Shown here: piece by piece, positions 2,254 to 25,812 of the stretch
Numbering within the stretch: position 1 is the stretch's first letter
How the letters are laid out: each line of letters starts with the position of its first letter
NCBI GenBank assembly: GCA_023663525.1
Contig: JAMPHF010000002.1
Span: forward strand, 190,984 to 254,983
Direction: 5' to 3'
DNA from: Bacteroides sp.
GTDB lineage: Bacteria; Bacteroidota; Bacteroidia; Bacteroidales; Muribaculaceae
DNA length: 64,000 nucleotides
Made by a program: the position numbers and the translations under genes
The notes under the pieces: model-generated
The model's database searches: none
Told to the model about the DNA's origin: nothing
What the model saw: only the letters and a program-made list of their open reading frames with translations

Positions 2254-2286
2254 TTTGCAGAATAATATATAAAATATGTATCTTTG
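2254..2286 (+). promoter_or_regulatory. Promoter of the riboswitch-led cobalamin operon
   Basis: TTTG (2254-2257), a 21-base spacer, then TATCTTTG (2279-2286), matching the Bacteroides consensus. Transcription should start near 2293, which is where the riboswitch P1 stem begins. Confidence 0.85.
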
Positions 2287-2292
2287 CACCGC

Positions 2293-2469
2293 GTTTTGGT
2301 TTCGCCACTGAGCGATGAAAATGGGAAGCAGGTGAGAATCCTGAACAGACCCGCTGCTGTGATTCCTGAAAACGCTCATTGATTAATCAATGCCACTGTG
2401 GATGGTGAGAAAGTGTCCATGGGAAGGTCAGTTCAATGAGATGGGATAAGTCAGAAGACCTGCCAAGAC
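2293..2469 (+). promoter_or_regulatory. Cobalamin riboswitch aptamer
   Basis: This 5' leader carries the conserved parts of an adenosylcobalamin-family aptamer: the GGTGAGAATCC-like segment and ACAGACCCGC near 2328-2356, a GCCACTG element near 2392, GGGAAGG near 2421, and a B12 box AGTCAGAAGACCTGCC at 2449-2464. A P1 stem closes it (2293-2299 with 2463-2469). The remaining leader to 2636 would be the expression platform. It should switch off the downstream receptor-chelatase-transporter operon when cobalamin is plentiful; that outcome is known for the class and inferred here. No U-tracted terminator is obvious in the platform, so control of translation is more likely than termination. Confidence 0.95.
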
Positions 2470-2636
2470 AACATAAGTTTTGTAGTTTTCGGGAAATAAA
2501 GCCACAAAGCAATCCTACAAACCCCATTCCGTTGTCATGGATGCAATTTGTTTGTGTGTCCTGCCGATGCGGTCTGTCGGGCTGACTGTGGTTTGGTTTA
2601 TCCCCGATGCTATTTGATTAACAGTTAGCTCACGCA

Positions 2637-4994
2637 ATGGAAATGAGGCGATTTTTTTCAGTTGTTTTATTTATATGCTTGACGCTGTTGCCGATGATGG
2701 CGATGGCAGCCACGGTCCGTCTCTACGGGACTGTGAGGGGCTCTGCTGGAGAAGCCGTCCCATACGCAACGGTTTATGACCGTGACAGCAAGCGTGGATG
2801 CGCTCCTGACGAGCAGGGAAGCTATTCGCTGCAACTCAAGTCGGGCAAGCACACGATTGAAGTTTCGGCGGTCGGCTATGTCGCAGAAGTCAGGACTGTG
2901 GACTTGATGTCGGACACAAAAATGGATTTTGTGTTGAAAGAGGATGCGGTGACGCTTTCCGGGGTCAATGTCTATGGCAAGACCAATGGTCGGAAACTGT
3001 CGGAGGGTGCATTCACTGTCAATGCCATTGAACTTAATGCGGATGTCAACAAACTCGTGAAGCTGAAGGATATCGTTGACCGCAGTGCGGGTGTGAAAGT
3101 GCGTCGCGAGGGTGGTGTCGGATCTGATTATGATCTCATAATCAACGGTCTGTCGGGCAATTCAATAAGATATTTCATCGATGGTGTGCCTCTCGACTCG
3201 AAAGGTACGGATTTCAATCTCGACAATATATCGGTGAATACGGTCGAACGCATAGAACTGTATAAAGGTGTCGTCCCGTCATATCTGAGTTCGGACGCAC
3301 TCGGGGGTGCTGTCAACATCGTCACCAAAAAGCAGCAGAAAAATTTTCTTGATTTCTCATACGGTGTCGGGTCTTTCCATACTCAGAGCGTCGATCTGAC
3401 AGGCAAGTATTTCATCCCGAAAACGAAGATTGCCATCTTGCCGACATTCAGTCTCAATTATTCAAAGAATGACTATACGATGAAGAATGTTGAGGTCTGG
3501 GATGAGGATGCCGACAAATACATATATACAAACAAGAAGCGTTTTCACGACGATTATCGCTCGATATTTTCACAGATAGAGGTTGGCGTGAATGATGTCA
3601 GATGGGCTGATGCCTTTTTCATCGGTGCGTCATATACCAAAGTCGATAAGGAACTCCAGACCGGCGCGATGCAGAATAAGGTCTATGGCGAGGCTTCGCG
3701 CAACTCCCACTCGATGAATGTCTCAGCACGTTATGCCAAGAGATGGGAACAGCTTAATGTCCGTCTTAATATGTCGCATACGTGGGATCACAGCGAGACT
3801 GTTGACACTGCCTACCGTAAATATTCATGGGACGGAACATGGATGCCCTCAAGCGGTAATGAGATGAACAACAAGAGCAGGACAATAAGAGTCTACCGCC
3901 GTCCGCTCACCATCGTCAATGCCGGAGTGGACCATGACATAAATGATTTCCACAATATTGCGTTCAACTACATGCTGAACCGCAGGGGCAATGACCGCAC
4001 CGACAAGGTTGACAAGTACTTTGAGCCGTCAAATGATGTGGTTACGAAACATCTTCTGTCGCTCACCTATTCGCAGTCGTTTTTCGATGAACGTTGGCAG
4101 ACCTCCTACTTTGTGAAGGACTATATCAATGTCATGAACATAAAGCAGACCGATGATGTTACCATCACCGGGTCAGACAAGATTGAGACTGATGTGACTA
4201 AGGATTATTGGGGCGCAGGTGTCGGTACGAGATTCACTCTCAAAGAGCCGTTTTCGGTGAAAGGCTCATACGAACACAGTGTGCGCCTGCCGCTCTCAAG
4301 AGAATTGCTCGGCAATGGGACAACCATTTACCCGAATCTTGCCCTCTCGCCTGAAACAAGCAATAACTACAACTTGGGTTTCTTCGGGACATGGCGCATC
4401 GACGCTGACAATATGCTGAGCTATGAGGCAAATGGATTTATCCGTCATGTGCAGCACTACATCCGTGCGACTGTCTCCGAGCGTGATGGCATGATGCAAT
4501 ATGTCAACGAGCCTGCAATTGATGTCAAAGGAGTGGATGTTGAACTCAACTATTTGTGGCGAAACGCTTTGCAGATAAGCCTGAACGGTAGTTGGAGCGA
4601 TGCGCGCGACTTGAAGAAATTTAAGAGTGACGGCAATCCGTCGGCCACATATAAGAACCGTGTCCCCAATCGTCCGTGGATATTCGCGAATGCCGGCGTA
4701 AACTATACGATTCATGATTTGCTGCGTAAGGAGGACCGCCTGCGGGTCGGTTGTGACTATCAGTGGATTCACTGGTATTATCTGAACTGGGAGGCTTACG
4801 GCTATGCGCAATCCAAGGCTAAGATACCGACACAGAACATCACGAATCTTTATCTCACGTATTCCATGTGCAATGATCGCTACAATCTCTCGCTCGAATG
4901 CAATAATGTTTTTGACCGTCTCGCATACGATAACTACATGTTGCAGAAACCGGGACGTGCGTTCTATGCAAAATTCAGACTGTTTATCAACTAA
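2637..4994 (+). CDS. TonB-dependent outer-membrane receptor, probable corrinoid importer (BtuB-like)
   Basis: Outer-membrane gated channel that would bring corrinoids, or a related tetrapyrrole, into the periplasm using TonB energy. It has a signal peptide (to about residue 25, ending MAMAA), a carboxypeptidase-like regulatory domain at about 25-110 (YGTVRGSAGEAVPYATV), a plug domain at about 120-235 (INGLSGNSIRYFIDGVPL, YKGVVPSYLSSDALGGAVNIVTK) and a beta-barrel to an aromatic-rich C-terminus. The 785-residue length is normal. It is the first gene behind the cobalamin riboswitch, the main evidence for a corrinoid substrate. The downstream chelatase genes resemble those in haem operons, so a haem-like substrate remains possible. 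The start at 2637 is the first ATG; a second lies two codons later. Confidence 0.9.
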   Translation: MEMRRFFSVVLFICLTLLPMMAMAATVRLYGTVRGSAGEAVPYATVYDRDSKRGCAPDEQGSYSLQLKSGKHTIEVSAVGYVAEVRTVDLMSDTKMDFVLKEDAVTLSGVNVYGKTNGRKLSEGAFTVNAIELNADVNKLVKLKDIVDRSAGVKVRREGGVGSDYDLIINGLSGNSIRYFIDGVPLDSKGTDFNLDNISVNTVERIELYKGVVPSYLSSDALGGAVNIVTKKQQKNFLDFSYGVGSFHTQSVDLTGKYFIPKTKIAILPTFSLNYSKNDYTMKNVEVWDEDADKYIYTNKKRFHDDYRSIFSQIEVGVNDVRWADAFFIGASYTKVDKELQTGAMQNKVYGEASRNSHSMNVSARYAKRWEQLNVRLNMSHTWDHSETVDTAYRKYSWDGTWMPSSGNEMNNKSRTIRVYRRPLTIVNAGVDHDINDFHNIAFNYMLNRRGNDRTDKVDKYFEPSNDVVTKHLLSLTYSQSFFDERWQTSYFVKDYINVMNIKQTDDVTITGSDKIETDVTKDYWGAGVGTRFTLKEPFSVKGSYEHSVRLPLSRELLGNGTTIYPNLALSPETSNNYNLGFFGTWRIDADNMLSYEANGFIRHVQHYIRATVSERDGMMQYVNEPAIDVKGVDVELNYLWRNALQISLNGSWSDARDLKKFKSDGNPSATYKNRVPNRPWIFANAGVNYTIHDLLRKEDRLRVGCDYQWIHWYYLNWEAYGYAQSKAKIPTQNITNLYLTYSMCNDRYNLSLECNNVFDRLAYDNYMLQKPGRAFYAKFRLFIN

Positions 4995-5006
4995 ATAACA
5001 TTTACA

Positions 5007-6278
5007 ATGAAGAAGTTTAAATTTTCACTGCTACTTTTCATTGCCCTGTTCACATCGCTGGGCTTGGCGAGCTGTTCGGATGACGATCCGAAAGGCGATG
5101 ACAACAATGACGATCCCACCGTCATCGATGACTTCCACTTTGACCTTTGGGTGGCTTTGGACAAACACGGCGGCATGGGACGCGACGTGAAGACTCTTGT
5201 CCGCAGCGTCGAATCGCTTGAAGCAGACCAGCCGGAAATCACTTTCAAGGGTGAGGGCACCGAGGTCAACTCAATCCTTTCGCTTGAGACAATCCTCAAG
5301 GGGGCTTACTACTATCAGGTTCCGGTTTCGGGCGATCGCTTCAGCAAGTACATAATCAAGGACAACAAAATCACAGTCATTGCTGAGCGTCGTTTCCAGA
5401 CCAATACATACTCCACCCGTAAGTACACTCACGCATGGGTTGATGACAATACTCTCATCATTATGGCTGCCAACGGTGAGGGCAACAAGATTATCTGGAC
5501 AAAGCTCAACGCCGACAACATGACAATCATCTCAGAGGGAGAACTCGATGTCAAGATGCCTGAGAGCGGCGATATTTATACCACATCGGGTATCCTCACT
5601 TACCGCAAGTCGGACAACAGACTGTTCTATTTCTACTATCCCAAGTCCGGAGGGACACGTGGCAAACGCGTCACCCCAATGAAGACGGCTGTCATCAATC
5701 CTGATAATATGGCTGTTGAGAGCGATACCGAGTGCTTCCTTGACTGCGAAATGGTCGGAACTGCCTACGGTGAGCTTCTTCAGACCACAACGTTCATCGA
5801 TGATGACGACAATCTCTACATCGCTTGTGTGACCGATGAGACAGACGGCGAGCACAGCCACCTCCTCCGCATCAATGCAAACTCTACGACCTTCGACAAG
5901 GACTATGATGGCTTCACCGCCGGAGGTAAACTCATCTCTGTGATCTATATGGGAGGCTCAGACGTGATTGCCTACGCTCGCGACGATGCGAAGGGAACCG
6001 GCATTGACGCTTTCAGCCATTACTATACAATTATAAATATCAAGACAAAGACAGCTTCACCGGTGACATATAACGGAGAGCGTCTTGCTTACAGCAGCGG
6101 ACGTTTCTCATCGCGCATGGCTTTTGTCAATCACAAAGCCTACATCGGTGTGGATGCCGAAAATACCAATCCTCAAATATATATCTATGATGCCAAGAAC
6201 CGCACTACCGAGAAGGGTGCGACAATGGCAGCAGGATTTTATTTCGAGCAGATCCGTGTGGTTGAAGATGTGAAATAA
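5007..6278 (+). CDS. Surface lipoprotein, DUF4374-like / beta-propeller-like ligand-capture partner
   Basis: The signal peptide ends at a lipobox (LASC, Cys23), followed at once by SDDDPKGDDNNDD. Such acidic tails match the Bacteroidetes lipoprotein export signal for the cell surface. The rest (423 residues in all) is rich in beta strands and repeated WTKLNADNMTI- or INIKTKTA-like turns that suggest a propeller. It lies 12 bases after the receptor gene, the place where surface partners such as BtuG (corrinoids) or XusB/HmuY-type lipoproteins (siderophores, haem) are found. I did not see a signature proving BtuG, so the ligand is open; corrinoid is inferred from the riboswitch. The DUF4374 resemblance is from memory and not tested. 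Confidence 0.75.
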   Translation: MKKFKFSLLLFIALFTSLGLASCSDDDPKGDDNNDDPTVIDDFHFDLWVALDKHGGMGRDVKTLVRSVESLEADQPEITFKGEGTEVNSILSLETILKGAYYYQVPVSGDRFSKYIIKDNKITVIAERRFQTNTYSTRKYTHAWVDDNTLIIMAANGEGNKIIWTKLNADNMTIISEGELDVKMPESGDIYTTSGILTYRKSDNRLFYFYYPKSGGTRGKRVTPMKTAVINPDNMAVESDTECFLDCEMVGTAYGELLQTTTFIDDDDNLYIACVTDETDGEHSHLLRINANSTTFDKDYDGFTAGGKLISVIYMGGSDVIAYARDDAKGTGIDAFSHYYTIINIKTKTASPVTYNGERLAYSSGRFSSRMAFVNHKAYIGVDAENTNPQIYIYDAKNRTTEKGATMAAGFYFEQIRVVEDVK

Positions 6279-6372
6279 TCTATAATAACTCTTTTCTGCC
6301 AATGTGAGCTATCGAGATTAAATTTTTTCTATCTATGTCTACAAATCAGTAAATAAGGCTCACGTAATCGTA

Positions 6373-6403
6373 GTCTCCCGGGATGTTGGTCATTCCGGGA
6401 GAC
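6373..6403 (+). terminator. Intercistronic hairpin before cbiK
   Basis: A 13-bp stem (6373-6385 with 6391-6403, one G-T pair) with a 5-base loop, followed by an AT-rich stretch without a clean T run. It splits the operon between the outer-membrane genes and the chelatase/transport genes. It could be a partial terminator or an RNA-stability element that lets more receptor than chelatase be made. Confidence 0.5.
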
Positions 6404-6426: not shown

Positions 6427-7332
6427 GTGATGAGACGAATATTGATTTTACTGACTGTCATACTTTCATGTACGGTGGCTAAAGCATGCGCTGCAGAGCC
6501 TGCCGACGGTGAGAAACATGCCATACTGATGGCCCATTTCGGTACGACGTATGACGACACGCGCGCACTCACTATCGACGCTTTGAATGAAAAAGTGAAG
6601 ACCGATTTTCCGGATATGGACGTCTTCGAGGCCTACACTTCGAGGATTATCATCAGCAGACTTAAAAAAAGAGGCATAGTGAAATCCACTCCACGTGAAA
6701 TGTTGCTGAAACTTGCTGCGGAGGGTTATACACATGTCTTCATTCAGGGTACAAACATCATTGACGGAATTGAGTCGGAAACATTGCGCGATGATGTAGA
6801 GTTCATGATTCCGTTTTTCAAGGATATTCGCGTCGGCTATCCGTTGCTTTATTCAATTGAGGATTGTGAGAAGGTTGTCGGGATTCTTGCTGAACGGCAT
6901 GAGGCCTTGGCTGGAAAGCATTCGGCAGTCGTCCTCATAGGTCATGGAACTGCGACCCCGGCCAATGCAATCTATTCGCAGATTGATTATATGTTCAATG
7001 CCGATGGCCACGGTCAGTTTCATGTAGCCACCGTCGAGGGCTATCCGACATTTGACACAACTCTTGCCAAGCTCAAGGCTTCAAAGGTGAAGAAGGTCAC
7101 ATTGCTGCCGTTCATGTTTGTCGCCGGTGATCATGCCCGGAATGACATTGACGGTGAGTGGTGTGAAAATCTCGTCAAAGAAGGCTATGAGGTCTCGACC
7201 ATAATGGAGGGGCTCGGGCAGATACCCGCGATTCAGGACATCTACGTCGATCATATCCGGCAAGGACTCAACGAACGGCCGTTGAAGGCAATGGAACGTA
7301 AAGCGGCTTTCTTGAGGGATAATCTCAGGTGA
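6427..7332 (+). CDS. cbiK: Exported CbiK-type (anaerobic) cobaltochelatase
   Basis: CbiK inserts cobalt into sirohydrochlorin without ATP; relatives (periplasmic CbiK of Desulfovibrio, IhtB/FetB of Porphyromonas) are exported and linked to haem or metal handling. Here an N-terminal hydrophobic segment (about residues 5-15), then CTVAKACAAEP, predicts export. ILSC at Cys15 is a weak lipobox, and ACA-AEP offers an alternative signal-peptidase I site, so whether it is lipidated is unclear. The mature part has MAHFGTTYDDTR near residue 35, LIGHGTATPANAIY with a His near 174, and VAGDHARNDI with a His near 236. The last two fit the catalytic histidine pair of the family. Total length 301, usual for CbiK plus a leader. 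Because it is exported and lies in a transport operon, it may act on imported tetrapyrroles rather than in the cytosolic corrin pathway. Confidence 0.88.
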   Translation: MMRRILILLTVILSCTVAKACAAEPADGEKHAILMAHFGTTYDDTRALTIDALNEKVKTDFPDMDVFEAYTSRIIISRLKKRGIVKSTPREMLLKLAAEGYTHVFIQGTNIIDGIESETLRDDVEFMIPFFKDIRVGYPLLYSIEDCEKVVGILAERHEALAGKHSAVVLIGHGTATPANAIYSQIDYMFNADGHGQFHVATVEGYPTFDTTLAKLKASKVKKVTLLPFMFVAGDHARNDIDGEWCENLVKEGYEVSTIMEGLGQIPAIQDIYVDHIRQGLNERPLKAMERKAAFLRDNLR

Positions 7333-7410: not shown

Positions 7411-10400
7411 ATGGCGAGGAAACGGAAAATCATTCTTGCGGCGGCCTTCATCTTGATCTTGGTGTCGGTCGTGTCGTTTTATAGTCACTATTGCACCCCG
7501 ACACGTATATTGATTGTCAATCCGCTGCCGGCTCAGGCAGCCGAGATTGTACTCAATAATGATAACAGTCACATTGAGGTGACTTGTAAGGCGATGGACG
7601 AGGCTCGTGATTTTGACAGCTATGACGCTGTGCTGATGTATGGCAGAGGACTGTATCTCGATTCTGCACAGATGATTTCCGTTGACAAAGCCGCAAAAAA
7701 AGGAGTACCGATATTCACAAATACGCTTAGGAATTTCAGTTCCATTGTGAATCATAATCTTGATTCAGTTCAGGTTGAGAATATCCAGGCATATTTTAAA
7801 AACCCCTGTCAGGCAAACTACAGGAATCTTCTGCGATACACGCGGAGCATCGCGACTCCCTATAAGTGGGGTGACATGAGCTACGCGGAAGCTGTCATGC
7901 TGCCAAACAATATGTATTACCATCTGGATGGCGGCAAGTATTTTAAAAAGGCCGATGAACTGACCGAGTATCTGAAGGAGACGGGAAGATATAATAATGC
8001 CGGGGACAATATAGTGTTCGTCTCAGGTATAACTTTCCCCGTTGAAGGGAATCGTGCACATATCGACAGTCTTATATCCCGTCTGACACAGGAGGGCTAT
8101 AACGTCTATCCGCTTTCGGCGACTGGTAGAAGCCGTGCGAAGATGATACGTGAAGTGAGTCCTAAGGCTATCGTCTATCTTCCCATGGGCAGGCTTGGAA
8201 ATGATACGCTGATTAACTGGGCGTATGACAACCGTGTCCCACTCTTTATGCCTTTCCCGCTGATTCAATCGCGCGAGGAATGGCTTGACGTGAACAATCC
8301 TATGAGCGCAGGGACGCTTAATGCGCGAATCGTGGTCCCTGAAATCGACGGGGCGATGACTCCACTCTGCATCTCCACGCAGGATGCCAACGCTGACGGT
8401 TATCTTCTCTACAATCCCGTTGGGGAGCGTGTGGACGCTTTTATTGAGCAGTTTACCCGTTTCATGAATCTGCGCACAAAACCTAACGGTCAAAAGCGAG
8501 TGGCAATAGGCTATTTCAAATCGCCCGGCAAGGACGCGCTCCTTGCTTCGGGGATGGAGGTCGTGCCGTCGCTGTATAATTTCTTGAAAAGACTCCGCGA
8601 TGAGGGCTATGATGTCAGTGGGCTTCCGGCGAGTGTCGATGCGTTCAAAAAACAAATCGTGGAGCAAGGCTCTGTGATGGGGTCATACGCTCCGGCGGCA
8701 CAGCAGACATTCATGGACAGGTATGCCAAGACATGGATCAACAAGGATACGTATGAAAAATGGGCGACAGATGTACTCCTGCCTGAAAAATATCAAGAGG
8801 TGACTCAAAGATACGGCGATGCGCCGGGGTCAATACTCAGTCGAGGTGACAGTCTGGCAATAGCATGTGTGCGTTATGGCAATATTTTGCTGTTTCCGCA
8901 ACCTCGTCCGGCTGTAGGGGATGACGATTTCAAACTTGTTCATGGTGTGGAGGTCGCTCCTCCCCACAGTTATCTTGCTCCGTATCTTTACATGCAGAAG
9001 GCATTTGATGCGGATGCACTGATTCATTTCGGCACACACGGCAATCTCGAATTTACTCCCGGAAAGAATGCCGGATTGTCGCAAGGCGATTGGGCTGAGG
9101 TATTGACTGGCAACCGTCCGCATTTCTATTTCTACACCACCGGCAATGTCGGGGAGGCAATCATAGCGAAGCGGAGGAGTCATGCGGTCATCGTGACCCA
9201 TCTGACACCACCCTACGTCGAGAGTGGTCTCAGGCAGAAATATGCCACGCTTATCGAAGATATTCATGATGCGATCGCCACACCTTCAAAGAATACATCA
9301 AAGCTGAAAGCACAGATTGTAGCGATGGGTGTGCATAAGGATTTGGGTATGGACTCAGTTTCGGGCAAGCCATATACGTCTGATGAGCTAAGGAAGGTGG
9401 ATGCTTTCATTGAGGAACTTGCCAATGAGAAAATCACGGGAGCATACTACACGATGGGGCAGCCGTATGATAACAAAGACATGCGCACAACCGTCGTGGC
9501 TATCTCAGCCGACAAACTTGCATACGCACGAGCAAAGGAGGACAGGGACAAGGGAAAGATAACAACCGACCGATTGCAGGACTACACGTTTATCAGTCAC
9601 AATTATCTGCCAAAAGCCAGAAGGGATGTTGAGGCGGTTGATTTGACATCGGACACCATGTCGGCTGAGGTCGAATTGAAAAATGCCGTGAGATATCGCG
9701 AATTGCTCACTGAATCACCGAGGAGGGAGTTTGATGCGATGCTCGGGGCATTGTCGGGGGTACCCGTCCGCCCGGCTCCCGGCGGTGATCCTGTCTTGAA
9801 TCCAAACGTGCTTCCGACTGGCCGCAACATGTATAGCATCAATGCTGAAGCGACTCCGGGTGAGAAAGCATGGAATGACGGAGTCTCGCTTGCTGAGAAT
9901 ACGCTCAAAAGTTATCTTGCAAAACATGGTGAATATCCCAAGAAAGTCAGCTATACGTTCTGGGCAGGTGAGTTCATTTCCTCGCAGGGTGCCACTATTG
10001 CGCAGGCACTTCGCATGTTGGGTGTCGAGCCAGTCAGGGATGAGCAGGGGCGCGTCATGGATCTGCGCCTCATACCCTCCGAGGAGCTTGGCCGTCCGCG
10101 CATAAACATACTCGTTCAGGTCTCGGGGCAGCTCAGGGACATTGCAGGGTCGAGATTGAAGATGTTGACAGAGGCCGTCGCGCTTGCGTCGCAGGCCAAG
10201 GATGACTTTTACCCAAATTATGTTGCGGAGGGGTCAATCGAGCAGGAGGCTGATATGGTTGAGAAAGGATTGTCACCTAAACGGGCGAGAGAACTATCGA
10301 CCATGCGTGTGTTCGGTCCGGTAAATTCCGGTTACAGTACAGGCATGTTGCGTTACACGGAAAGTTCGGGAGAATGGGATGATCACCGGGAACTGATTGA

Positions 10401-11295
10401 CGGGTATCTCAATAATATGTGTGCCATGTATGGCGATGATGACAATTGGGGAAAGGCTGACTCCGGGCTCTTGTCGGCAGCAATCAAAAATACGGATGTC
10501 ATCGTGCAGCCACGTCAGAGCAATACATGGGGACCAATTTCACTTGATCATGTATATGAATTTACCGGCGCACTCTCGCTCGCCTCTGCGGGCATAAACG
10601 GTAAAGAACCGGAGGCAATGATGGCGGACTATCGCAACGCATACCTGCCACGTATGCAGGACACGAAGGAGGCAATAGCTGTCGAGACGCGTGCAACCAT
10701 ACTCAATCCTGAGTTCATCAGAGAACGGATGAAAGGTGACGCAACCACAGCGCATATGTTCGGCGAGATATTCCGCAATATTTTTGGCTGGTCAGTGATG
10801 CGTCAATCTGCGCTCAATGACGATATACATGATGATTTATACGACCTTTATGTCAAGGACAAGGAGAATCTTGGAGTAGAGGAGTACTTTAACCGTGTCA
10901 ATCCCGCAGCGTTGCAGGAGATGACTGCCACAATGCTTGAAAGTGTTAGGAAAGGATACTGGAAAGCCTCTCCCGAGCAACTCAAGGCTACCGCCGGACT
11001 CCATGCTTCTTTGACCGAGAGAAATGGTGCTCCATGCACGGAGTTTGTGTGCGGCAACAAGAAGTTGCAACAGTTCATCGCAGGATCACTCGACAGTCGT
11101 GCCGCCGGAGTTTATCGTGAGAAGATAAACGATGCGATTGCTGAAAATTCAGGTGCAAAAGTTTTGAAAAAAGAGAATCTGTCAACGGATATTATGGCAG
11201 ATAAAGGATCATATTCAGCGTGGTTGATTGTAATTTTAGCTATCTTTGCAATCGTCTTGACCGGTACTGTGATTTATCGGAAACGTAAGCAATAA
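7411..11295 (+). CDS. Membrane-anchored CobN/HmuS-type chelatase
   Basis: A CobN-family large chelatase subunit of 1294 residues. The conserved core motif HFGTHGNLEFTPGKNAGLS lies near residue 540 and LPTGRNMYS near 801. Cytosolic CobN proteins lack the terminal segments seen here: an N-terminal anchor (about residues 7-22, after MARKRK) and a C-terminal anchor (about 1268-1288, before RKRKQ). Both basic tails point to the cytoplasm, which places the whole enzyme in the periplasm. This layout fits HmuS of Bacteroidetes haem operons, a CobN homologue implicated in removing metal from haem. No CobS or CobT ATPase partner lies in the window, and the nearby corrin pathway is the anaerobic type that does not use CobN. 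I therefore read it as a periplasmic chelatase or dechelatase of imported tetrapyrroles. Substrate and direction are inference. Confidence 0.85.
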   Translation: MARKRKIILAAAFILILVSVVSFYSHYCTPTRILIVNPLPAQAAEIVLNNDNSHIEVTCKAMDEARDFDSYDAVLMYGRGLYLDSAQMISVDKAAKKGVPIFTNTLRNFSSIVNHNLDSVQVENIQAYFKNPCQANYRNLLRYTRSIATPYKWGDMSYAEAVMLPNNMYYHLDGGKYFKKADELTEYLKETGRYNNAGDNIVFVSGITFPVEGNRAHIDSLISRLTQEGYNVYPLSATGRSRAKMIREVSPKAIVYLPMGRLGNDTLINWAYDNRVPLFMPFPLIQSREEWLDVNNPMSAGTLNARIVVPEIDGAMTPLCISTQDANADGYLLYNPVGERVDAFIEQFTRFMNLRTKPNGQKRVAIGYFKSPGKDALLASGMEVVPSLYNFLKRLRDEGYDVSGLPASVDAFKKQIVEQGSVMGSYAPAAQQTFMDRYAKTWINKDTYEKWATDVLLPEKYQEVTQRYGDAPGSILSRGDSLAIACVRYGNILLFPQPRPAVGDDDFKLVHGVEVAPPHSYLAPYLYMQKAFDADALIHFGTHGNLEFTPGKNAGLSQGDWAEVLTGNRPHFYFYTTGNVGEAIIAKRRSHAVIVTHLTPPYVESGLRQKYATLIEDIHDAIATPSKNTSKLKAQIVAMGVHKDLGMDSVSGKPYTSDELRKVDAFIEELANEKITGAYYTMGQPYDNKDMRTTVVAISADKLAYARAKEDRDKGKITTDRLQDYTFISHNYLPKARRDVEAVDLTSDTMSAEVELKNAVRYRELLTESPRREFDAMLGALSGVPVRPAPGGDPVLNPNVLPTGRNMYSINAEATPGEKAWNDGVSLAENTLKSYLAKHGEYPKKVSYTFWAGEFISSQGATIAQALRMLGVEPVRDEQGRVMDLRLIPSEELGRPRINILVQVSGQLRDIAGSRLKMLTEAVALASQAKDDFYPNYVAEGSIEQEADMVEKGLSPKRARELSTMRVFGPVNSGYSTGMLRYTESSGEWDDHRELIDGYLNNMCAMYGDDDNWGKADSGLLSAAIKNTDVIVQPRQSNTWGPISLDHVYEFTGALSLASAGINGKEPEAMMADYRNAYLPRMQDTKEAIAVETRATILNPEFIRERMKGDATTAHMFGEIFRNIFGWSVMRQSALNDDIHDDLYDLYVKDKENLGVEEYFNRVNPAALQEMTATMLESVRKGYWKASPEQLKATAGLHASLTERNGAPCTEFVCGNKKLQQFIAGSLDSRAAGVYREKINDAIAENSGAKVLKKENLSTDIMADKGSYSAWLIVILAIFAIVLTGTVIYRKRKQ

Positions 11296-11306
11296 CACTA
11301 CATGAT

Positions 11307-12455
11307 ATGAGTAAGTTAACTTTAGTCGCAACAACAATCCTTATGTTTGTCATGGTTTCATGCAGGCATAAGACAGATAACGGAGGAATCAACAATGATG
11401 GCGGGAGTGCTGTCAGAGATTCCTCAGCAATGATTTTATCGGAATATGCAAACGGGTTTCATGTGCAGTATCTTGACGGATGCACGCTTCTTGACATCAA
11501 TGACCCCGAGAATCGAGAGGCGGAGCAATTTCATTTCGCCCTCGTGCCGAAAGGTGCGGATGTTGAGATTCCTGAGGGCTATACGCGGATAGAGACTCCG
11601 ATTGAGAGTGCGATTTGCATGACATCGCTGCAGTTGTCGAACTTCATCAAGCTCGGAATCACAGAGAAAGTAGTCGGAATCACCAGCACGCGTCATCTCC
11701 ACAACGAGCAGATGAATAAGCAACTGAAAGAGGGTATGACACACAAGATCGGTATCGAGGGCAATTTTGATAATGAGGTCATTATGGCCATTAATCCGGA
11801 AGTGATTTTCATATCGCCATTCAAGAGGGGCGGATATGATGCAATCAGGAATGTCGATATACCGATGATTCCTCATCTTGGGTACAAAGAGCTGACTCCA
11901 CTCGGTCAGGCGGAATGGATAAAGATGATAGGGCTGCTGACAGGTAATGAGAAGGAGGCTAATGAGGTTTTCAGTGGCATAGTCGGGAGATATAATGACC
12001 TGAAAAGTCGTGTGGATACTGTCACGGTTCGTCCCACGGTGTTCAGTGGCGAGATGAGAGGTGGAAATTGGTATGCTGTCGGTGGTAAAAGTTTCCTTGC
12101 CCAGCTTTTCAGAGATGCTGGAGCTGACTATTTCCTGAAAGATAACAATGAGTCCGGTGGCGTGACGTTGGACTACGAGACTGTCTACACCAATGCGGCC
12201 AATGCGGACTATTGGCGTATTGTCAACAGCTTCGATGGTGAGTTCAGTTATGATGTGCTTGCCAAACAGGACAATCGTTACACTGATTTCAAGGCCTGGA
12301 AGGATCATGGTGTGGTGTACTGCAACATGAAGGAAGTGCCTTTCTATGAGCGTATGCCGGTTGAGCCGGAGGTTGTGCTTGCCGATTTCATCCATGTGTT
12401 TCATCCTTCAATCCTCTCCGATCATCAACCATCCTACTATCATTTGCTGAAATGA
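11307..12455 (+). CDS. ABC transporter substrate-binding lipoprotein (BtuF/FecB-like)
   Basis: Periplasmic capture protein that would pass substrate to the permease encoded next. The signal peptide ends in MVSC (Cys19), so it is a lipoprotein; no acidic surface-export tail follows, consistent with anchoring toward the periplasm. Two alpha/beta lobes typical of the TroA/BtuF class are visible, with PIESAICMTSLQLSNFIKLG near residue 95 and INPEVIFISPFKRGG near 165. 382 residues. It follows the chelatase by 11 bases and overlaps the permease gene by 4. The family covers B12, haem and ferric siderophores; the riboswitch favours a corrinoid. Confidence 0.87.
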   Translation: MSKLTLVATTILMFVMVSCRHKTDNGGINNDGGSAVRDSSAMILSEYANGFHVQYLDGCTLLDINDPENREAEQFHFALVPKGADVEIPEGYTRIETPIESAICMTSLQLSNFIKLGITEKVVGITSTRHLHNEQMNKQLKEGMTHKIGIEGNFDNEVIMAINPEVIFISPFKRGGYDAIRNVDIPMIPHLGYKELTPLGQAEWIKMIGLLTGNEKEANEVFSGIVGRYNDLKSRVDTVTVRPTVFSGEMRGGNWYAVGGKSFLAQLFRDAGADYFLKDNNESGGVTLDYETVYTNAANADYWRIVNSFDGEFSYDVLAKQDNRYTDFKAWKDHGVVYCNMKEVPFYERMPVEPEVVLADFIHVFHPSILSDHQPSYYHLLK

Positions 12456-13486
12456 AGAAATCGACCACGGTGCTGCTAATGGTCCTGTTAGTGGTTTCAA
12501 TCATATTTTTCTTTTTTCTGAACCTCTTGCTTGGGTCGGTGCATATCCCCATGCAGGAAGTCCTCGGAATTTTGACCGGGAGTCCATCGGAGTCAGAGAT
12601 ATGGAATAACATTGTCATGAAATCAAGAGTCCCGCAGGCTCTGACTGCCGTCATGGCTGGTGCCGGACTTGCTGTCAGTGGTCTGCTGATGCAGACAGTG
12701 TTCCGTAATCCTCTCGCCGGACCGTCGGTGCTTGGAATCAGTTCGGGTGCAAGTCTCGGTGTGGCATTCGTGGTTTTGCTTTCGGGAAACATCGGTGGTG
12801 TGGCTTTGAGCAAGTTGGGTGTCATCGGTGAGGTGACAATCACCATGTCGGCGATAGTAGGCTCGTTGTTGATAATGGCTCTGATAGCGTTTGTGGCACA
12901 AAAGGTCAGGGGAAATGTGACACTACTGATCATGGGTGTCATGATCGGTTATATTGCCAATGCCATAATCGGTGTACTCAAGTTTTTCAGTGCTGAGGAG
13001 GATATACGAGCTTACGTCATTTGGGGACTGGGGAGTTTTGCGCGTGTGTCAGGTGGACAGACCACGGTTTTCATCGTCATCATGCTTGTGCTGTTGCCTC
13101 TCTCATTTCTACTGATAAAGACGTTGAACCTGCTGCTCCTTGGCGACTCCTATGCGCGCAATCTCGGACTCGACATCAAGCGTGCTCGTTTGCTTGTGAT
13201 TTCATGTGCCGGAGTGCTTGTGGCGATTGTCACTGCCTATTGCGGACCGATCGTGTTTCTCGGACTCGCAGTTCCTCATCTCTGCCGTGGAATATTCCGC
13301 ACTTCCAATCATGCGACAATTCTGCCCGCCTCACTGTTTGCCGGGGCATCGTTGGCGTTGCTGTGTAATCTTATAGCCAGGATGCCGGGTTTCGAGGGTG
13401 CCTTGCCTGTAAATTCAGTGACTGCACTTGTTGGCGCGCCGGTGGTTATATGGGTATTGTTTAACAAACGCAAAAGTGAATCATGA
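12452..13486 (+). CDS. FecCD/BtuC-family ABC transporter permease
   Basis: Inner-membrane channel half of a type II importer. About ten hydrophobic helices in 344 residues. Family landmarks include SRVPQALTAVMAGAGLAVSGLLMQTVFRNPLAGPSVLG split around residues 51-90 and the cytoplasmic coupling region GLAVPHLCRG near 272, which meets the ATPase. It overlaps the upstream gene by 4 bases and the ATPase gene by 4, so the three are surely co-translated. Substrate (cobalamin, haem or siderophore) cannot be read from the permease alone. Confidence 0.9.
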   Translation: MKKSTTVLLMVLLVVSIIFFFFLNLLLGSVHIPMQEVLGILTGSPSESEIWNNIVMKSRVPQALTAVMAGAGLAVSGLLMQTVFRNPLAGPSVLGISSGASLGVAFVVLLSGNIGGVALSKLGVIGEVTITMSAIVGSLLIMALIAFVAQKVRGNVTLLIMGVMIGYIANAIIGVLKFFSAEEDIRAYVIWGLGSFARVSGGQTTVFIVIMLVLLPLSFLLIKTLNLLLLGDSYARNLGLDIKRARLLVISCAGVLVAIVTAYCGPIVFLGLAVPHLCRGIFRTSNHATILPASLFAGASLALLCNLIARMPGFEGALPVNSVTALVGAPVVIWVLFNKRKSES

Positions 13487-14493
13487 ACGATCGAAAGGAG
13501 ACAATCCGTGTCGAAGGGCTGACCACCGGCTATCGTGACAAACATGGGGACATTGTCATCACACGAAATATTGATGCTTCGCTCTTTTCAGGCGAGTTGA
13601 CTTGCCTGCTCGGACCTAACGGTGCGGGAAAATCAACACTTCTGAGGACGCTTTCGGCTTTTCTCCCGCCACTCTCGGGGAAAATTATGATCGAAAGGAG
13701 AAATCTGACATCCTACAAGGATTCCGAGCTTGCAAAAGTGATAGGAGTGGTACTTACCGAAAAATTGAGCCTCAGCAACATGTCGGTCTATGAACTTGTC
13801 GGGATGGGGCGGAGTCCCTACACCGGCTTTTGGGGACATCTCACATCGTCAGACAAGGAGGTGATTGACGAATCCATATCACTTGTTAAAATAGACAAGC
13901 TCCGTGACAGAATGATTCAGACACTGAGCGATGGTGAGCGACAGAAGGTGATGATAGCAAAGGCTCTTGCACAGGAGACTCCGATAATATTTCTTGATGA
14001 GCCGACTGCGTTCCTCGACTATCCCAGCAAGGTGGAGATCATGCAGCTTTTGCAAAATCTGTCGAGAGTGAAGAATAAAACTGTGTTCCTGTCAACGCAT
14101 GATTTGGAGCTGGCTCTCCAGATAGCCGATAAAATATGGCTGATTGATAAGACGCATGGTGTCAAGATCGGGACACCGGAAGATTTGTCTATCAACGGCT
14201 ATATGGGTACTTTTTTTGAACGCGAGGGCATAAAATTTGACCTTGAGTCGGGTTTGTTTCGCATTGACAACCGCCCGGACCGTTATATCAGACTCGAAGG
14301 GGACGGCTACTGCTACAATATGGTGAAAAAGGCACTTGCGCGCAATGGGATATTGGCTGAAAGAAACATTGACTCCTCGGACATTGTCAAAATTTCTGAT
14401 ACAGGATATGAATTCAGAGGCAGGAAGTGGAGTTCTATCGAGGCATTACTTGATGCGATAAGGGATTTCACCCTCATCGGTGATCAGAAGTGA
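13483..14493 (+). CDS. ABC transporter ATPase (BtuD/FecE-like)
   Basis: Powers the importer. Walker A GPNGAGKST near residue 45, signature LSDGERQKVMIAKAL near 148, Walker B IIFLDEPTAFLD near 168, switch His in LSTHD near 205. At 336 residues it is about 80 longer than the usual 250-260. The extra C-terminal part (from about 255) contains FESGLFRIDNRPDRYIRLE-like sequence split over several strands and may be a regulatory domain. Its 3' end overlaps the convergent cbiD end by 48 bases (14446-14493), so both genes share sequence on opposite strands. Confidence 0.9.
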   Translation: MNDRKETIRVEGLTTGYRDKHGDIVITRNIDASLFSGELTCLLGPNGAGKSTLLRTLSAFLPPLSGKIMIERRNLTSYKDSELAKVIGVVLTEKLSLSNMSVYELVGMGRSPYTGFWGHLTSSDKEVIDESISLVKIDKLRDRMIQTLSDGERQKVMIAKALAQETPIIFLDEPTAFLDYPSKVEIMQLLQNLSRVKNKTVFLSTHDLELALQIADKIWLIDKTHGVKIGTPEDLSINGYMGTFFEREGIKFDLESGLFRIDNRPDRYIRLEGDGYCYNMVKKALARNGILAERNIDSSDIVKISDTGYEFRGRKWSSIEALLDAIRDFTLIGDQK

Positions 14494-16248
14494 TTCGAGC
14501 TGTCCTGACCGGTAGATTCTTTTGCAATTCGCGTGGCAGAGTTCCAAAATTCGTGTGAAAAATCGCTCTGCACATGATTGCGGGATGATGCCCCAAAGTT
14601 CGCGTGACATATTGATTTCGGCTATGCGTCTGCCCACATCATCGCCGCAGCCACATTCATTGGCGATGTCGCAAAGAAATTCTCTGTTCAGCATCGATTT
14701 GTGGCTGTGGGTATCCATCTTGCCCTCGGCGAGTTTCACTGCTTTACCGATCATCAGTCCGATGGTCAGATTTTCGATCGCAAGTTCCTGTGCGAGATTC
14801 ATTATGTCGCCAATGGCATTTCCATAATGGATGAATGCCTGAGAGAGGAGATCAGGGTACAGGGCTTTCACGTATCGTTCGCTTTTCCCTCCTGAGTTGA
14901 CGACGATATGGCGGCAGCCCATAGCTTTGGCGACCTCTATTTCGCGCCGCATGGAATCAACGAAGGCTTCATGGGAGAACGGACGCACTATGCCTGTGGT
15001 CCCGATTATCGAGATTCCACCGACAATGCCAATACGCGGATTGAACGTCTTCAGTGCCAGTTCCTTGCCTTCAGGTATGCTGATTGTCACATCTATCCCG
15101 CCATTGAAGATTGCGGTCAGCTCATTTTCAATCATTTTACGAGGCACGGGATTGATGGCAGGCTCTCCGACTTCGATACCTATGCCCGGCAGTGTCACAG
15201 TCCCGATTCCCTCGCCTCCGATAAATTTGATTCCCTCGCGGTTGGCTCGCTTCAGGTTGACCACAACATGACAGCCGTTGGTCACGTCCGGATCGTCACC
15301 TGCATCCTTGACCACCACGGCAGTCGCTGCGTTTCCGCCACTGTCAACGGTCACGGACTCGACATCCATCTCAAGCACCTCGCCGGATGGTAGAGTGAAT
15401 GGAATCCGCCGGCATATTTCTCCTTTGAAAAGTGCCAACGCTGCAGCTTTTGCTGCCACTGTAGCACATGCCCCGGTGGTAAAGCCGGTGTGTAGAGGAT
15501 AGAATTCGGGATACAGGTGTTCAATCTGCTGACGAAGGCCGTCCACGCCATAGACGGTGATGAAATTTGGTGGCATCGTCGGACGCCTTACCACAAAAAA
15601 TTTCAATCCAAAATCCTTGGCCACCTGTAGTTTCTCCTCGAAACCGCCTGATTTTCCGCTCTCTTTGGTGATGATGGCTTCAGGGTGGAATTGTCTCACG
15701 ATTTCCACACAATCACTGTCCTCATTGTAAGGAAACAGATTCTGCGGCGGGAATCCTTGGCTGACGGCTTTCATGTATGATTCATCACGGTCAAGAATGC
15801 GGAATCGGCATTCATGGTTTGTCCAGAATGGCTTCAACTTGGCAATTGTCTGCACACCTGTCAGAGCGAGCAGGCGGTTTATGCAGTGCGCATTTAGTTT
15901 GGTTATGGCATCATCATAATCATTGCAGTAGATTGCATAATAATCGTCCGGAGGATAAGTACGCTCGAAGCGGATGACAGGGATTTCAAGTCTTTCGGAG
16001 GTCTCCCGGATTGTGTCGTGTAGTTGCGAGGCAAATGGATGGGCTGCATCGATGATTAGCCTTATATTTTTGTCACGGCAAAATTCGGGCATTGACTCTC
16101 TGTCCAAAGCTCCCGACAGTCGTGTGCCGAATTTACATTTGATGTCTTGCAGATCGCTCTTGGTAGAGTAGAAATAAGGATTTCCACTCTCATCGAGCGT
16201 TCTGACAGCCAGTCGCCCCTCGGTGGTTCCTCCGAAAACGAGTATCAT
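14446..16248 (-). CDS. CbiJ-CbiD fusion (precorrin-6A reductase + C1 methyltransferase)
   Basis: Two successive corrin-ring enzymes in one 600-residue cytosolic protein. Residues 1 to about 245 are CbiJ/CobK: a Rossmann-like NAD(P)H reductase with ILVFGGTTEGR at the N-terminus, LIIDAAHPFA near 64 and TKESGKSGGFEEK near 194. Residues about 252-600 are CbiD: GFTTGACATVAAKAAALA near 255, then FTLPSGEVLEMDVESV and IGIVGGISIIGTTGIVRP. CbiD methylates C1 of cobalt-precorrin-5B and marks the anaerobic (cobalt-early) pathway. Last of the four fusion genes; its start overlaps the upstream stop by 4 bases. Its end overlaps the ATPase gene on the other strand. Confidence 0.93.
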   Translation of the reverse strand: MILVFGGTTEGRLAVRTLDESGNPYFYSTKSDLQDIKCKFGTRLSGALDRESMPEFCRDKNIRLIIDAAHPFASQLHDTIRETSERLEIPVIRFERTYPPDDYYAIYCNDYDDAITKLNAHCINRLLALTGVQTIAKLKPFWTNHECRFRILDRDESYMKAVSQGFPPQNLFPYNEDSDCVEIVRQFHPEAIITKESGKSGGFEEKLQVAKDFGLKFFVVRRPTMPPNFITVYGVDGLRQQIEHLYPEFYPLHTGFTTGACATVAAKAAALALFKGEICRRIPFTLPSGEVLEMDVESVTVDSGGNAATAVVVKDAGDDPDVTNGCHVVVNLKRANREGIKFIGGEGIGTVTLPGIGIEVGEPAINPVPRKMIENELTAIFNGGIDVTISIPEGKELALKTFNPRIGIVGGISIIGTTGIVRPFSHEAFVDSMRREIEVAKAMGCRHIVVNSGGKSERYVKALYPDLLSQAFIHYGNAIGDIMNLAQELAIENLTIGLMIGKAVKLAEGKMDTHSHKSMLNREFLCDIANECGCGDDVGRRIAEINMSRELWGIIPQSCAERFFTRILELCHANCKRIYRSGQLESLLITDEGEIPYRIK

Positions 16249-18017
16249 TGGCGGAAAAGGTGTTTGAAGTTGTCATCATAGAGTCTTGACAGACCCTCGC
16301 GGTTGTCAATCGCATCACCAACGACGAGAAGTGTTGTTAGAGTCAGATTATTGTCATGGACAATCTTGGCAAGATCTTTCAACTGTCCACGGTATATCCG
16401 TTCCTCTTTCCATGTCAGCTTGTAGCAGGCTGCCACAGGTGTCTCGGGGGGATATGCCTGCATAAGTTCACTTTGGACTTCATCGACGATAGCGGCACTC
16501 AGATAGATGCACATTGTGCTCTGTGACCGGGCGAGCAGGTGAAGTTTTTCCTTTTCAGGCATGGGAGTCCTGCCTTCACCTCTGGTGAGTATGATTGACT
16601 GGACCTTTTCAGGGATTGTGAACTGAGAGCGTAGTGCGGCGGCAGCGGCCTGGAAGGATGATATGCCGGGTGTGATGTGATATGACATCCCGTAGCGGTC
16701 AAAGAATGCCATCTGCTCCTGGATTGCACCATAAATGCATGGATCGCCGGTGTGGAGGCGCACCACCAACAGCCCACGGTCATAAAATTCTTTCATCAAG
16801 GAGAACTGTTCCTCAAGGTTCATGCTTGCGGAACTTCTGACCACGCATCCCGGTTTGGCATAATGGGTCAGTTCTTCGGGGACAAGGCTGCCGGCATAGA
16901 GAATCAGGTCGGCTTCCGACAGGAATCGTTTACCGCGTACCGACACCAGCTCCGGGTCACCCGGCCCGGCACCGACGATCTCGATGTGTCCTTTACGTAT
17001 GGCCGCACTGTCAATCGCAACGGCAAAAGTGAAATCATTTTGCTCCGAGAGTTTGCCTTTCTGTTTCTCCACAATCAGTGGCCCTCCTTCGGCACCGGCT
17101 ATGGCACAGCTTTCGGCCACGCCCCACACTCCGGTCACTTCATGCACCTTTTCTGACGGATTGGGCACGTCGATGTCGCCAAGTTGGACCGCAGAAAAAA
17201 TCTTCACATCGGGTAGTGCGAACTGTCGGGCAAGTGTGCACATCAGTTTTTCATCCTTTTTCAACTCAATGGTCGAGATGGATTTAAGCGAGAGCGGACT
17301 TATGCCGGAGTCAAGCAGCTTTTGTATAATGAACGCTCCGACACCTTCCGGATCGCAATCCTTGCGGCAACCGACACCTAGGCTGAGGACTTTTGGACGG
17401 AAATACAACACAGGCTTTCGGGATTCATAAGTGAAAGGAGTGACAGCAATGATGAGGTCAAGGTCTTCGCTGTCGTCAACCGAATGGATGATGCGGACAT
17501 TGTCGGGCAGTGTCCGTTCGAGCTCAGTCGTGCCACGGTCCTTGATGTCGAGCAGGAGTCCGACCGGGTGTCCGTTGACGAGGCTGAAGATAGCTTTGTT
17601 CATCTTACCTTTGCCGGCCTCAGTCTCCCACCCGAATTGTGATGTAAAGGTGTCGAGAGACCACGTCCCGGTGACATCGCTTTGGGTAGTGATGATTGGC
17701 TCTGCCCCTAAAATCCGCGCAAGCCGACGACACAGGTCATTCGCGCCACCGACATGACCTGAAAGGACAGAGATGACATACTTGCCGATGGAATCAAGGC
17801 ATACGACTGCCGGGTCAACATACTTATTTTTCAGGATTGGGGCAATCATACGGACACAAATGCCCATTGCACCGATGAAAATCACTGCGTCATATTCCGT
17901 CAGGGTTTTCTCATCAAGTTCCTTATGCCTGACTATATCGCAGTTGCCAATTTCTTTTGTAATTATGGCGGCTGTCTCCTCGCCACGGGGGCTTACGGTT
18001 ATTATGATTGTACGCAT
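16245..18017 (-). CDS. CbiG-CbiF fusion (cobalt-precorrin-5A hydrolase + C11 methyltransferase)
   Basis: Residues 1-336 are CbiG: MRTIIITVSPRGEETA, FIGAMGICVRMIAP near 48, VISVLSGHVGGANDL near 81, then the C-terminal CbiG domain with LSLGVGCRKD near 211. CbiG opens the delta-lactone and releases acetaldehyde, a step found only in the anaerobic pathway. Residues about 343-590 are CbiF/CobM, an SAM-dependent tetrapyrrole methylase, with IVGAGPGDPELVSVRGK near 347 and RLHTGDPCIYGAIQEQ near 418. CbiF makes the substrate on which CbiG acts, so the fusion joins neighbouring steps. Overlaps the upstream cbiET gene by 16 bases and the downstream gene by 4. Confidence 0.94.
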   Translation of the reverse strand: MRTIIITVSPRGEETAAIITKEIGNCDIVRHKELDEKTLTEYDAVIFIGAMGICVRMIAPILKNKYVDPAVVCLDSIGKYVISVLSGHVGGANDLCRRLARILGAEPIITTQSDVTGTWSLDTFTSQFGWETEAGKGKMNKAIFSLVNGHPVGLLLDIKDRGTTELERTLPDNVRIIHSVDDSEDLDLIIAVTPFTYESRKPVLYFRPKVLSLGVGCRKDCDPEGVGAFIIQKLLDSGISPLSLKSISTIELKKDEKLMCTLARQFALPDVKIFSAVQLGDIDVPNPSEKVHEVTGVWGVAESCAIAGAEGGPLIVEKQKGKLSEQNDFTFAVAIDSAAIRKGHIEIVGAGPGDPELVSVRGKRFLSEADLILYAGSLVPEELTHYAKPGCVVRSSASMNLEEQFSLMKEFYDRGLLVVRLHTGDPCIYGAIQEQMAFFDRYGMSYHITPGISSFQAAAAALRSQFTIPEKVQSIILTRGEGRTPMPEKEKLHLLARSQSTMCIYLSAAIVDEVQSELMQAYPPETPVAACYKLTWKEERIYRGQLKDLAKIVHDNNLTLTTLLVVGDAIDNREGLSRLYDDNFKHLFRQ

Positions 18018-20594: not shown

Positions 20595-20621
20595 TGTTAC
20601 ACGCGTTCTCGTAGTGTTATG

Positions 20622-20649
20622 CAAAAATACAAAAATATACTTATCTTTG
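20622..20649. promoter_or_regulatory. Back-to-back promoters of cbiHC and cbiA
   Basis: Plus strand: TATCTTTG (20642-20649) matches the Bacteroides -7 element and points at cbiA. Minus strand: TATTTTTG occurs at both 20622-20629 and 20630-20637, pointing at cbiHC. The elements lie within 28 bases, so polymerases on the two genes should interfere. The 78-base gap has no room for a cobalamin riboswitch. Confidence 0.65.
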
Positions 20650-20672
20650 TAGTCCAATCGTCTAAAAATATC

Positions 20673-25747: not shown

Positions 25748-25780
25748 TATTGTAAGTAGTGATTTGTCTTTTTGTGGTTG

Positions 25781-25812
25781 CAAAGTTGGATAAATAATTC
25801 CTATCTTGCAAA
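25781..25812 (-). promoter_or_regulatory. nrdJ promoter
   Basis: Read on the minus strand: TTTG (25809-25812), a 20-base spacer, then CAACTTTG (25781-25788), one base off the -7 consensus. The transcript would start near 25773, leaving a leader of about 25 bases. No cobalamin riboswitch fits there. Confidence 0.7.

Follow-up and report, generated by a model that had tools for sequence, protein, structure and literature searches.

A BtuS-type class I (de)chelatase with a predicted periplasmic body in a riboswitch-headed cobalamin operon of a Muribaculaceae bacterium

BtuS was proposed by Rodionov in 2003 (cited in PMC6460266) as a third type of CobN, with a role in metalloporphyrin salvage. 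For the two such proteins of Bacteroides fragilis, BtuS1 and BtuS2, a periplasmic location with membrane anchors was predicted (PMC6460266), BtuS2 being the HmuS of that species (PMC13227078). HmuS needs no AAA+ partner to remove iron from heme, and an H538A substitution abolishes turnover; its activity requires NADH by a route that is unknown, and an insertion, Met79, His254 and motifs in the body of the protein define it (PMC12583661). Here, we analyzed a stretch of 64,000 nucleotides from contig JAMPHF010000002.1 of a Muribaculaceae bacterium deposited as Bacteroides sp. (GCA_023663525.1), hereafter the window, and asked what is encoded by the gene at 7,411–11,295, which we call btuS. An earlier, sequence-only reading had predicted its product to be a CobN homologue lying wholly in the periplasm. 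Such a protein is not new, as BtuS1, BtuS2 and HmuS precede it in the published accounts (PMC6460266, PMC13227078, PMC12583661). We propose, at roughly even odds (about 0.5), that this BtuS-type (de)chelatase acts in vitamin B12-controlled salvage of a scavenged tetrapyrrole, which would be stripped of its metal, loaded with cobalt by an exported CbiK and imported by a BtuFCD-like transporter.

The btuS open reading frame was intact, with an ATG start, no internal stop and 1,294 codons on the + strand. The dN/dS ratio (nonsynonymous over synonymous substitution rates) was about 0.06–0.1 among close relatives, that is, strong purifying selection, and btuS is therefore a real, maintained gene. 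CobN-Mg_chel was the sole Pfam family on the protein (residues 127–1191, E = 3.6e-273), which stayed below the cut-offs of the NCBIfam CobN equivalogs (590 of 1248, 568 of 1619 and 438 of 822 bits) and of the BchH model (550 of 829 bits). Hydrophobic segments were limited to one at each end, residues 7–25 and 1270–1288, each with a basic tail. By the positive-inside rule, these two anchors place the body in the periplasm: residues 26–1269 are predicted to be extracytoplasmic, with the anchors in the inner membrane. These approximately 1,244 residues agree with the approximately 1,245 of the sequence-only reading. The two-anchor pattern was found in all 15 full-length Muribaculaceae orthologues and likewise in HmuS proteins, and the C-terminal anchor was seen in two further Muribaculaceae orthologues whose 5' end is cut. 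No comparable hydrophobic segments were present in a CobN-like protein of the same order (loci L141/L082) or in a CobN-like protein of locus L148, described below.

When the protein was compared with solved structures, it matched HmuS of B. thetaiotaomicron (entry 9d26 of the PDB) with 1135 bits, ChlH with 351 and CobN with 312. By sequence, HmuS is by far its closest solved relative, and this match settles the predicted fold. Residues were then compared in an alignment of 51 sequences including HmuS and BtuS rows, with the HmuS numbering of 9d26. The HmuS catalytic and cleft residues were kept as H543, H1047 and E1050 (Table 1), as were further catalytic and cleft residues, namely W1040, F507, H511, E582, Q1036 and S1037, and the catalytic residues were retained by all clade members legible at those positions. 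The metal-site motif HFGTHG lies at residues 539–544, with His543 as its key residue. In contrast, the ligands of HmuS heme site 1, Met79 and His254, were missing from BtuS, which has Arg79 and Met259 instead. The same replacement was found in the 17 tabulated Muribaculaceae relatives, save that in one of them, cut at its 5' end, only the Met was legible. Nearly all HmuS rows had the Met/His pair (L084 has a His at the first position), and no legible BtuS row had it. The methionine-rich insertion of domain IV was missing as well: the corresponding part of BtuS has 41 residues and a single Met, as against 94–302 residues in HmuS rows.

Together with its Muribaculaceae orthologues and two proteins that are more distant, the window protein formed one clade, with a support of 100 in the Shimodaira–Hasegawa-like approximate likelihood ratio test (SH-aLRT). 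A topology test did not reject HmuS monophyly (approximately unbiased test, P = 0.12), so the BtuS clade may stand either beside HmuS or nested in it, and we do not claim an origin from within HmuS. The best explanation appears to be that BtuS is a sister-type form to HmuS, distinct from CobN and ChlH, and predicted to work without an AAA+ motor of the CobST or ChlID type. The two proteins have in common the two anchors, the periplasmic body, the catalytic histidines and cleft, the lack of an AAA+ partner and, in most relatives of BtuS, HmuUV-like neighbours. They differ in that HmuS has the methionine-rich insertion, the Met79/His254 site and an hmuYR context, whereas BtuS has a cobalamin riboswitch and CbiK. 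The claim that the protein works like HmuS therefore stood in part: the kinship and the cleft speak for it, but working simply like HmuS is unsupported because the site-1 ligands and the insertion are missing and because the riboswitch, CbiK, BtuFCD and corrin genes give it a B12 rather than a heme-uptake context. A simple HmuS orthologue was likewise ruled out by the missing defining features. The best plasmid-borne relative, from Bacteroides finegoldii (42%), was rejected as a BtuS, being an HmuS of the hmuYRSTUV type.

An ordinary cytosolic CobN was ruled out by topology, by the tree and by the lack of CobST. CobN shares with BtuS the CobN-Mg_chel family and the histidine of HFGTHG; it differs in being soluble and cytosolic, in depending on CobST and ATP and in serving the aerobic route. 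The genome (2.66 Mb, 99.86% complete) was searched with hidden Markov models, and those of CobS (TIGR01650) and CobT (TIGR01651) had no match, the generic ChlI/ChlD pair not being part of this genome-wide search. At locus L141, as a point of contrast, a CobN-like gene without anchors directly adjoins AAA/ChlI-like and VWA/ChlD-like genes. The sequence-only reading had noted both the absence of CobS and CobT and an anaerobic local pathway; the latter was borne out by CbiK, CbiJD, CbiGF, CbiET, CbiHC and CbiA at the locus, and the phylogeny that it suggested, once run, did not group the protein with cytosolic CobN. What we found is a CobN-related Bacteroidota protein that forms its own clade, is predicted to be periplasmic and is headed by a B12 riboswitch, and in this it conforms to BtuS as named in Bacteroides. 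The B. fragilis family shares with it the relation to CobN, the predicted periplasmic and anchored state, the occurrence in Bacteroidota and a predicted role in metalloporphyrin salvage; the likeness to BtuS1 is one of description.

The operon starts with a cobalamin riboswitch and an outer-membrane receptor and continues through btuS to a BtuFCD-like transporter, next to which lie the corrin genes (Table 1). Matches of the exported CbiK in the PDB were Salmonella CbiK, the 2xvx chelatase and Porphyromonas gingivalis FetB. Its E115, H172 and H235 correspond to E89, H145 and H207 of Salmonella CbiK; it carries all catalytic residues, and cobalt insertion is predicted. FetB/IhtB of P. gingivalis and the 2xvx chelatase, which we take to be CbiK of Desulfovibrio vulgaris, belong to the same family and also lie outside the cytoplasm. 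They compare with the CbiK part only and imply neither a BtuS partner nor a corrin pathway. FetB, an extracytoplasmic CbiK homologue, is reported in a review to exchange the metal of protoporphyrin (PMC13402209) and offers a precedent for the salvage proposal.

Table 1. Features of btuS and its surroundings, in window coordinates
Feature	Position	Strand	Evidence
Cobalamin riboswitch aptamer RF00174, operon head	2280..2481	+	Rfam 92.9 bits, E 8.9e-22
TonB-dependent outer-membrane receptor, XusA-like	2637..4994	+	Pfam Plug, CarboxypepD_reg; 4-orthologue profile: XusA 9gbc 448 bits, BtuB ~60 bits
Surface lipoprotein (lipobox LASC), beta-propeller, weakly XusB-like	5007..6278	+	No Pfam family; profile against XusB 9hqe E 1.5e-4
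Strong hairpin between lipoprotein and CbiK genes	6373..6403	+	13-bp stem, -24.8 kcal/mol, z -5.5 against shuffles
Exported CbiK-family class II cobaltochelatase (signal peptide and CbiK)	6430..7332	+	Pfam CbiK E 5.1e-78
BtuS-type class I (de)chelatase, 1294 aa, predicted periplasmic body	7411..11295	+	ORF, Pfam, PDB match, alignment, tree, hydropathy
N-terminal membrane helix of BtuS, residues 7-25 (predicted)	7429..7485	+	Hydropathy 2.59, flank MARKRK (+4)
HFGTHG metal-site motif, residues 539-544, H543 = HmuS catalytic H538	9025..9042	+	Alignment to 9d26
QSNTWG...LDHVYE region, residues 1036-1050, H1047/E1050 = HmuS H1209/E1212	10516..10560	+	Alignment
C-terminal membrane helix of BtuS, residues 1270-1288 (predicted)	11218..11274	+	Hydropathy 2.74, flank YRKRKQ (+4)
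Periplasmic substrate-binding protein, BtuF-like	11307..12455	+	Pfam Peripla_BP_2
FecCD-type permease, BtuC-like	12452..13486	+	Pfam FecCD E 5e-74; top NCBIfam model BtuC, under cut-off
ABC (ATP-binding cassette) ATPase, BtuD-like	13483..14493	+	Pfam/NCBIfam
CbiJ-CbiD fusion	14446..16248	-	Pfam/NCBIfam
CbiG-CbiF fusion	16245..18017	-	Pfam/NCBIfam
CbiE-CbiT fusion	18002..19201	-	NCBIfam
CbiH-CbiC fusion	19194..20594	-	TIGR01466 332 bits; CbiC Pfam
CbiA, cobyrinic acid a,c-diamide synthase; start codon approximate	20592..21995	+	NF002204 461 bits

The arrangement was conserved among relatives, that is, BtuS-bearing loci retrieved from public genomes, in which the operon order was kept. A cobalamin riboswitch was found at all seven testable Muribaculaceae loci (the window, L037, L039, L064, L067, L076 and L078), and none at the four hmu loci whose upstream sequence was long enough for the search (L041, L142, L145 and L150). 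Locus L040 was also negative, but it begins within the receptor gene and provides no test. CbiK lay directly upstream of btuS at all 15 loci showing that side. Corrin genes downstream of btuS were visible at 11 loci, 9 of which had them in the same direction. Three same-genus genomes carry btuS, and these were the only ones among eight tested with any CbiK or CbiX. On the 3' side, genes for HmuU/V-like proton channels followed btuS in 14 of 18 relatives, where a short membrane protein occupied the HmuT position; such motor genes were not beside btuS in the window or in four relatives.

HemB was not found in the window's genome or in seven other genomes of the genus, and therefore the organism cannot make its own tetrapyrrole. 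The exported CbiK was the sole CbiK in the genome, which leaves no cytosolic one. Since HemB is missing, the corrin enzymes from CbiH onward are kept and the only cobaltochelatase is exported, a salvage account is the simplest. Under B12 control, an XusAB-like outer-membrane complex would import a tetrapyrrole carrying the wrong metal or none. BtuS would then strip the resident metal in the periplasm through its H543/H1047 cleft, by HmuS-type chemistry and with no AAA+ partner, the exported CbiK would insert cobalt, BtuFCD would import the cobalt-loaded product, and in the cytosol the anaerobic enzymes, from CbiH onward, would complete the corrin ring. We infer removal rather than insertion as the direction of BtuS, and likewise the order of the steps, the substrate and the use of motor energy; the candidate tetrapyrrole would be an isobacteriochlorin such as sirohydrochlorin, siroheme or, given the gap described below, factor III. 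As to what replaces ATP, we can only speculate that it might be an ExbB/ExbD-like HmuUV motor or an electron donor as for HmuS.

Several observations weigh against this salvage proposal. CbiL is the C20 methyltransferase required ahead of CbiH. The corrin pathway runs from CbiH on, and CbiL was missing genome-wide in the window's genome and two relatives (G000, G008 and G022), where the CbiL model gave cross-matches only; CobA was missing there too. The tetrapyrrole methylases of the window's genome were CbiF, CbiE, CbiH and two RsmI-type enzymes, with none of the CobA/CysG or CbiL type. Other Bacteroidales with corrin genes, whose methylases were classed by BLAST against those of the window and one CbiL, had CbiL in every genome resolved (G383 was not resolved in detail), and 10 of 16 yielded no CobA. 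Among these, Bacteroidales that share the fused corrin genes of the window retain CbiL. Because CbiL is missing, plain sirohydrochlorin alone would not be carried through by known chemistry, and the imported ring must either already bear the C20 methyl, as factor III does, or be accepted by CbiH without it. This weakens the case for siroheme or sirohydrochlorin as the one evident substrate. Moreover, neither CbiK nor corrin genes nor a riboswitch adjoin the gene in the closest BtuS relatives from outside Muribaculaceae (L110/L147 and L088/L144); the clade is therefore not tied to cobalamin everywhere and may serve more than one purpose. Many Bacteroidales have a corrin cluster with exported CbiK and no adjoining BtuS, and hence that route can do without BtuS. 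Finally, the receptor resembles XusA, which suggests a cargo of the siderophore type. XusABC xenosiderophore uptake (PMC13142918) has in common with this operon a TonB receptor, a beta-propeller lipoprotein and, in the operons of some relatives, a PepSY protein. It differs in answering to iron starvation, whereas the present operon is B12-controlled and tied to tetrapyrrole chelatases.

One alternative is that BtuS acts as a further heme de-chelatase, releasing the iron of periplasmic heme, and that its place in a B12 operon is incidental or reflects the use of leftover porphyrin. HmuS, its closest relative, does just this (PMC12583661), the cleft is intact, and a B. fragilis btuS1 btuS2 double mutant grew poorly with heme as the iron source (PMC6460266). 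Yet the BtuS clade has lost the site-1 ligands and the methionine-rich insertion, a riboswitch, CbiK and corrin genes stand where hmuYR would be expected, and the genome has a separate hmu locus elsewhere; we regard this possibility as unlikely. It seems more doubtful still that BtuS inserts cobalt in the manner of CobN, in the periplasm, with proton-motive force delivered by an HmuU/V-like motor of the ExbB/ExbD type in place of ATP. The neighbouring CbiK already supplies cobalt insertion and the closest characterized homologue works in the direction of removal; homology to CobN and the motor-like genes directly 3' of btuS in most relatives speak for it, and the lack of those motor genes beside btuS in the window and in four relatives speaks against it.

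Two further roles appear very improbable to us, the one as much as the other. BtuS might handle imported corrinoids rather than early tetrapyrroles, by binding, reducing or exchanging the metal of damaged or unusual ones. This would account for the riboswitch and the BtuFCD-like transporter, and for the missing CbiL, without which an early precursor is unusable in any known way, but it would leave the ring genes from CbiH to CbiA without purpose; the receptor is XusA-like and not BtuB-like, and the substrates of CbiK are rings of the sirohydrochlorin type. Alternatively, BtuS might catalyze little itself and mainly assist another chelatase, such as CbiK, by binding tetrapyrroles or by regulation. 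A regulatory role was indeed put forward for B. fragilis, where loss of both btuS genes did not stop protoporphyrin production but raised it (PMC6460266). The retention of the catalytic residues in every legible clade member and the strong purifying selection argue against such a role, as does the later demonstration that the homologue HmuS is an enzyme (PMC12583661).

The salvage proposal bears on Bacteroidales that have corrin genes but lack the steps to precorrin-2 or require B12, as described for P. gingivalis (PMC6461909) and others (PMC6593275). For the source of their ring the locus gives a testable route, from outer-membrane import through periplasmic metal removal and cobalt insertion to uptake. 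More tentatively, and with less confidence than in salvage as such, we suggest that remetallation with cobalt by extracytoplasmic BtuS and CbiK lets an organism without HemB, CobA and CbiL run the remaining anaerobic corrin pathway, possibly from factor III of other gut bacteria. In the available text of the BtuS literature, we found no description of a link to an exported CbiK and a truncated corrin pathway, and the wider literature available to us gave no account joining BtuS, exported CbiK and the Bacteroidales precorrin-2 gap. The locus also shows that class I chelatases have diverged into two or more periplasmic forms that lack AAA+ partners. Therefore, many gut-bacterial genes annotated as "cobaltochelatase subunit CobN" probably encode something other than CobN and take no part in aerobic B12 synthesis.

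Other observations concerned exported chelatases and related loci. An exported CbiK with TonB receptors, often with a PepSY_TM protein, was common in Bacteroidales cobalamin clusters that have no BtuS beside it (L149, L152–L155 and L157); the exported chelatase is a more general feature of these clusters than BtuS. An exported CbiK of a second kind, with about 40% identity, had a TonB receptor as its sole partner and no corrin genes (L042:9369-12367 and L160:7754-10720), which resembles the FetB/Iht arrangement. Loci L066 and L081 had an extra XusA-XusB-PepSY set within or ahead of the BtuS operon. The CobN-like protein of L148 (L148:10538-14380, G147:C3) is 28% identical to BtuS and closer to CobN, with an Asp replacing His1209. 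It has a signal-peptide-like N-terminus and no C-terminal anchor, and its gene adjoins a heme-type TonB receptor under a strong cobalamin riboswitch (109.8 bits); it is possibly a second, independent kind of exported CobN-like protein.

The hmuS of the genome itself (G000:C2, L040:1975-6322) was split into open reading frames at 1975-2817 and 2825-6322 in different frames, as a result of either an assembly error or a broken gene. The hmuS of B. thetaiotaomicron was once split by an assembly error (PMC12583661). Within the window, the model of the propeller lipoprotein was strand-rich and of low confidence (mean predicted local distance difference test score, pLDDT, 64), and its Foldseek matches were propellers in general, which did not separate BtuG from XusB. 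The hairpin between the lipoprotein and CbiK genes might be an attenuator or an mRNA-processing element, perhaps giving the outer-membrane and periplasmic parts of the operon different expression. Near the cobalamin cluster, an adenosylcobalamin-dependent ribonucleotide reductase, NrdJ, is encoded at 23141-25783 (554 bits), and the cell therefore needs B12.

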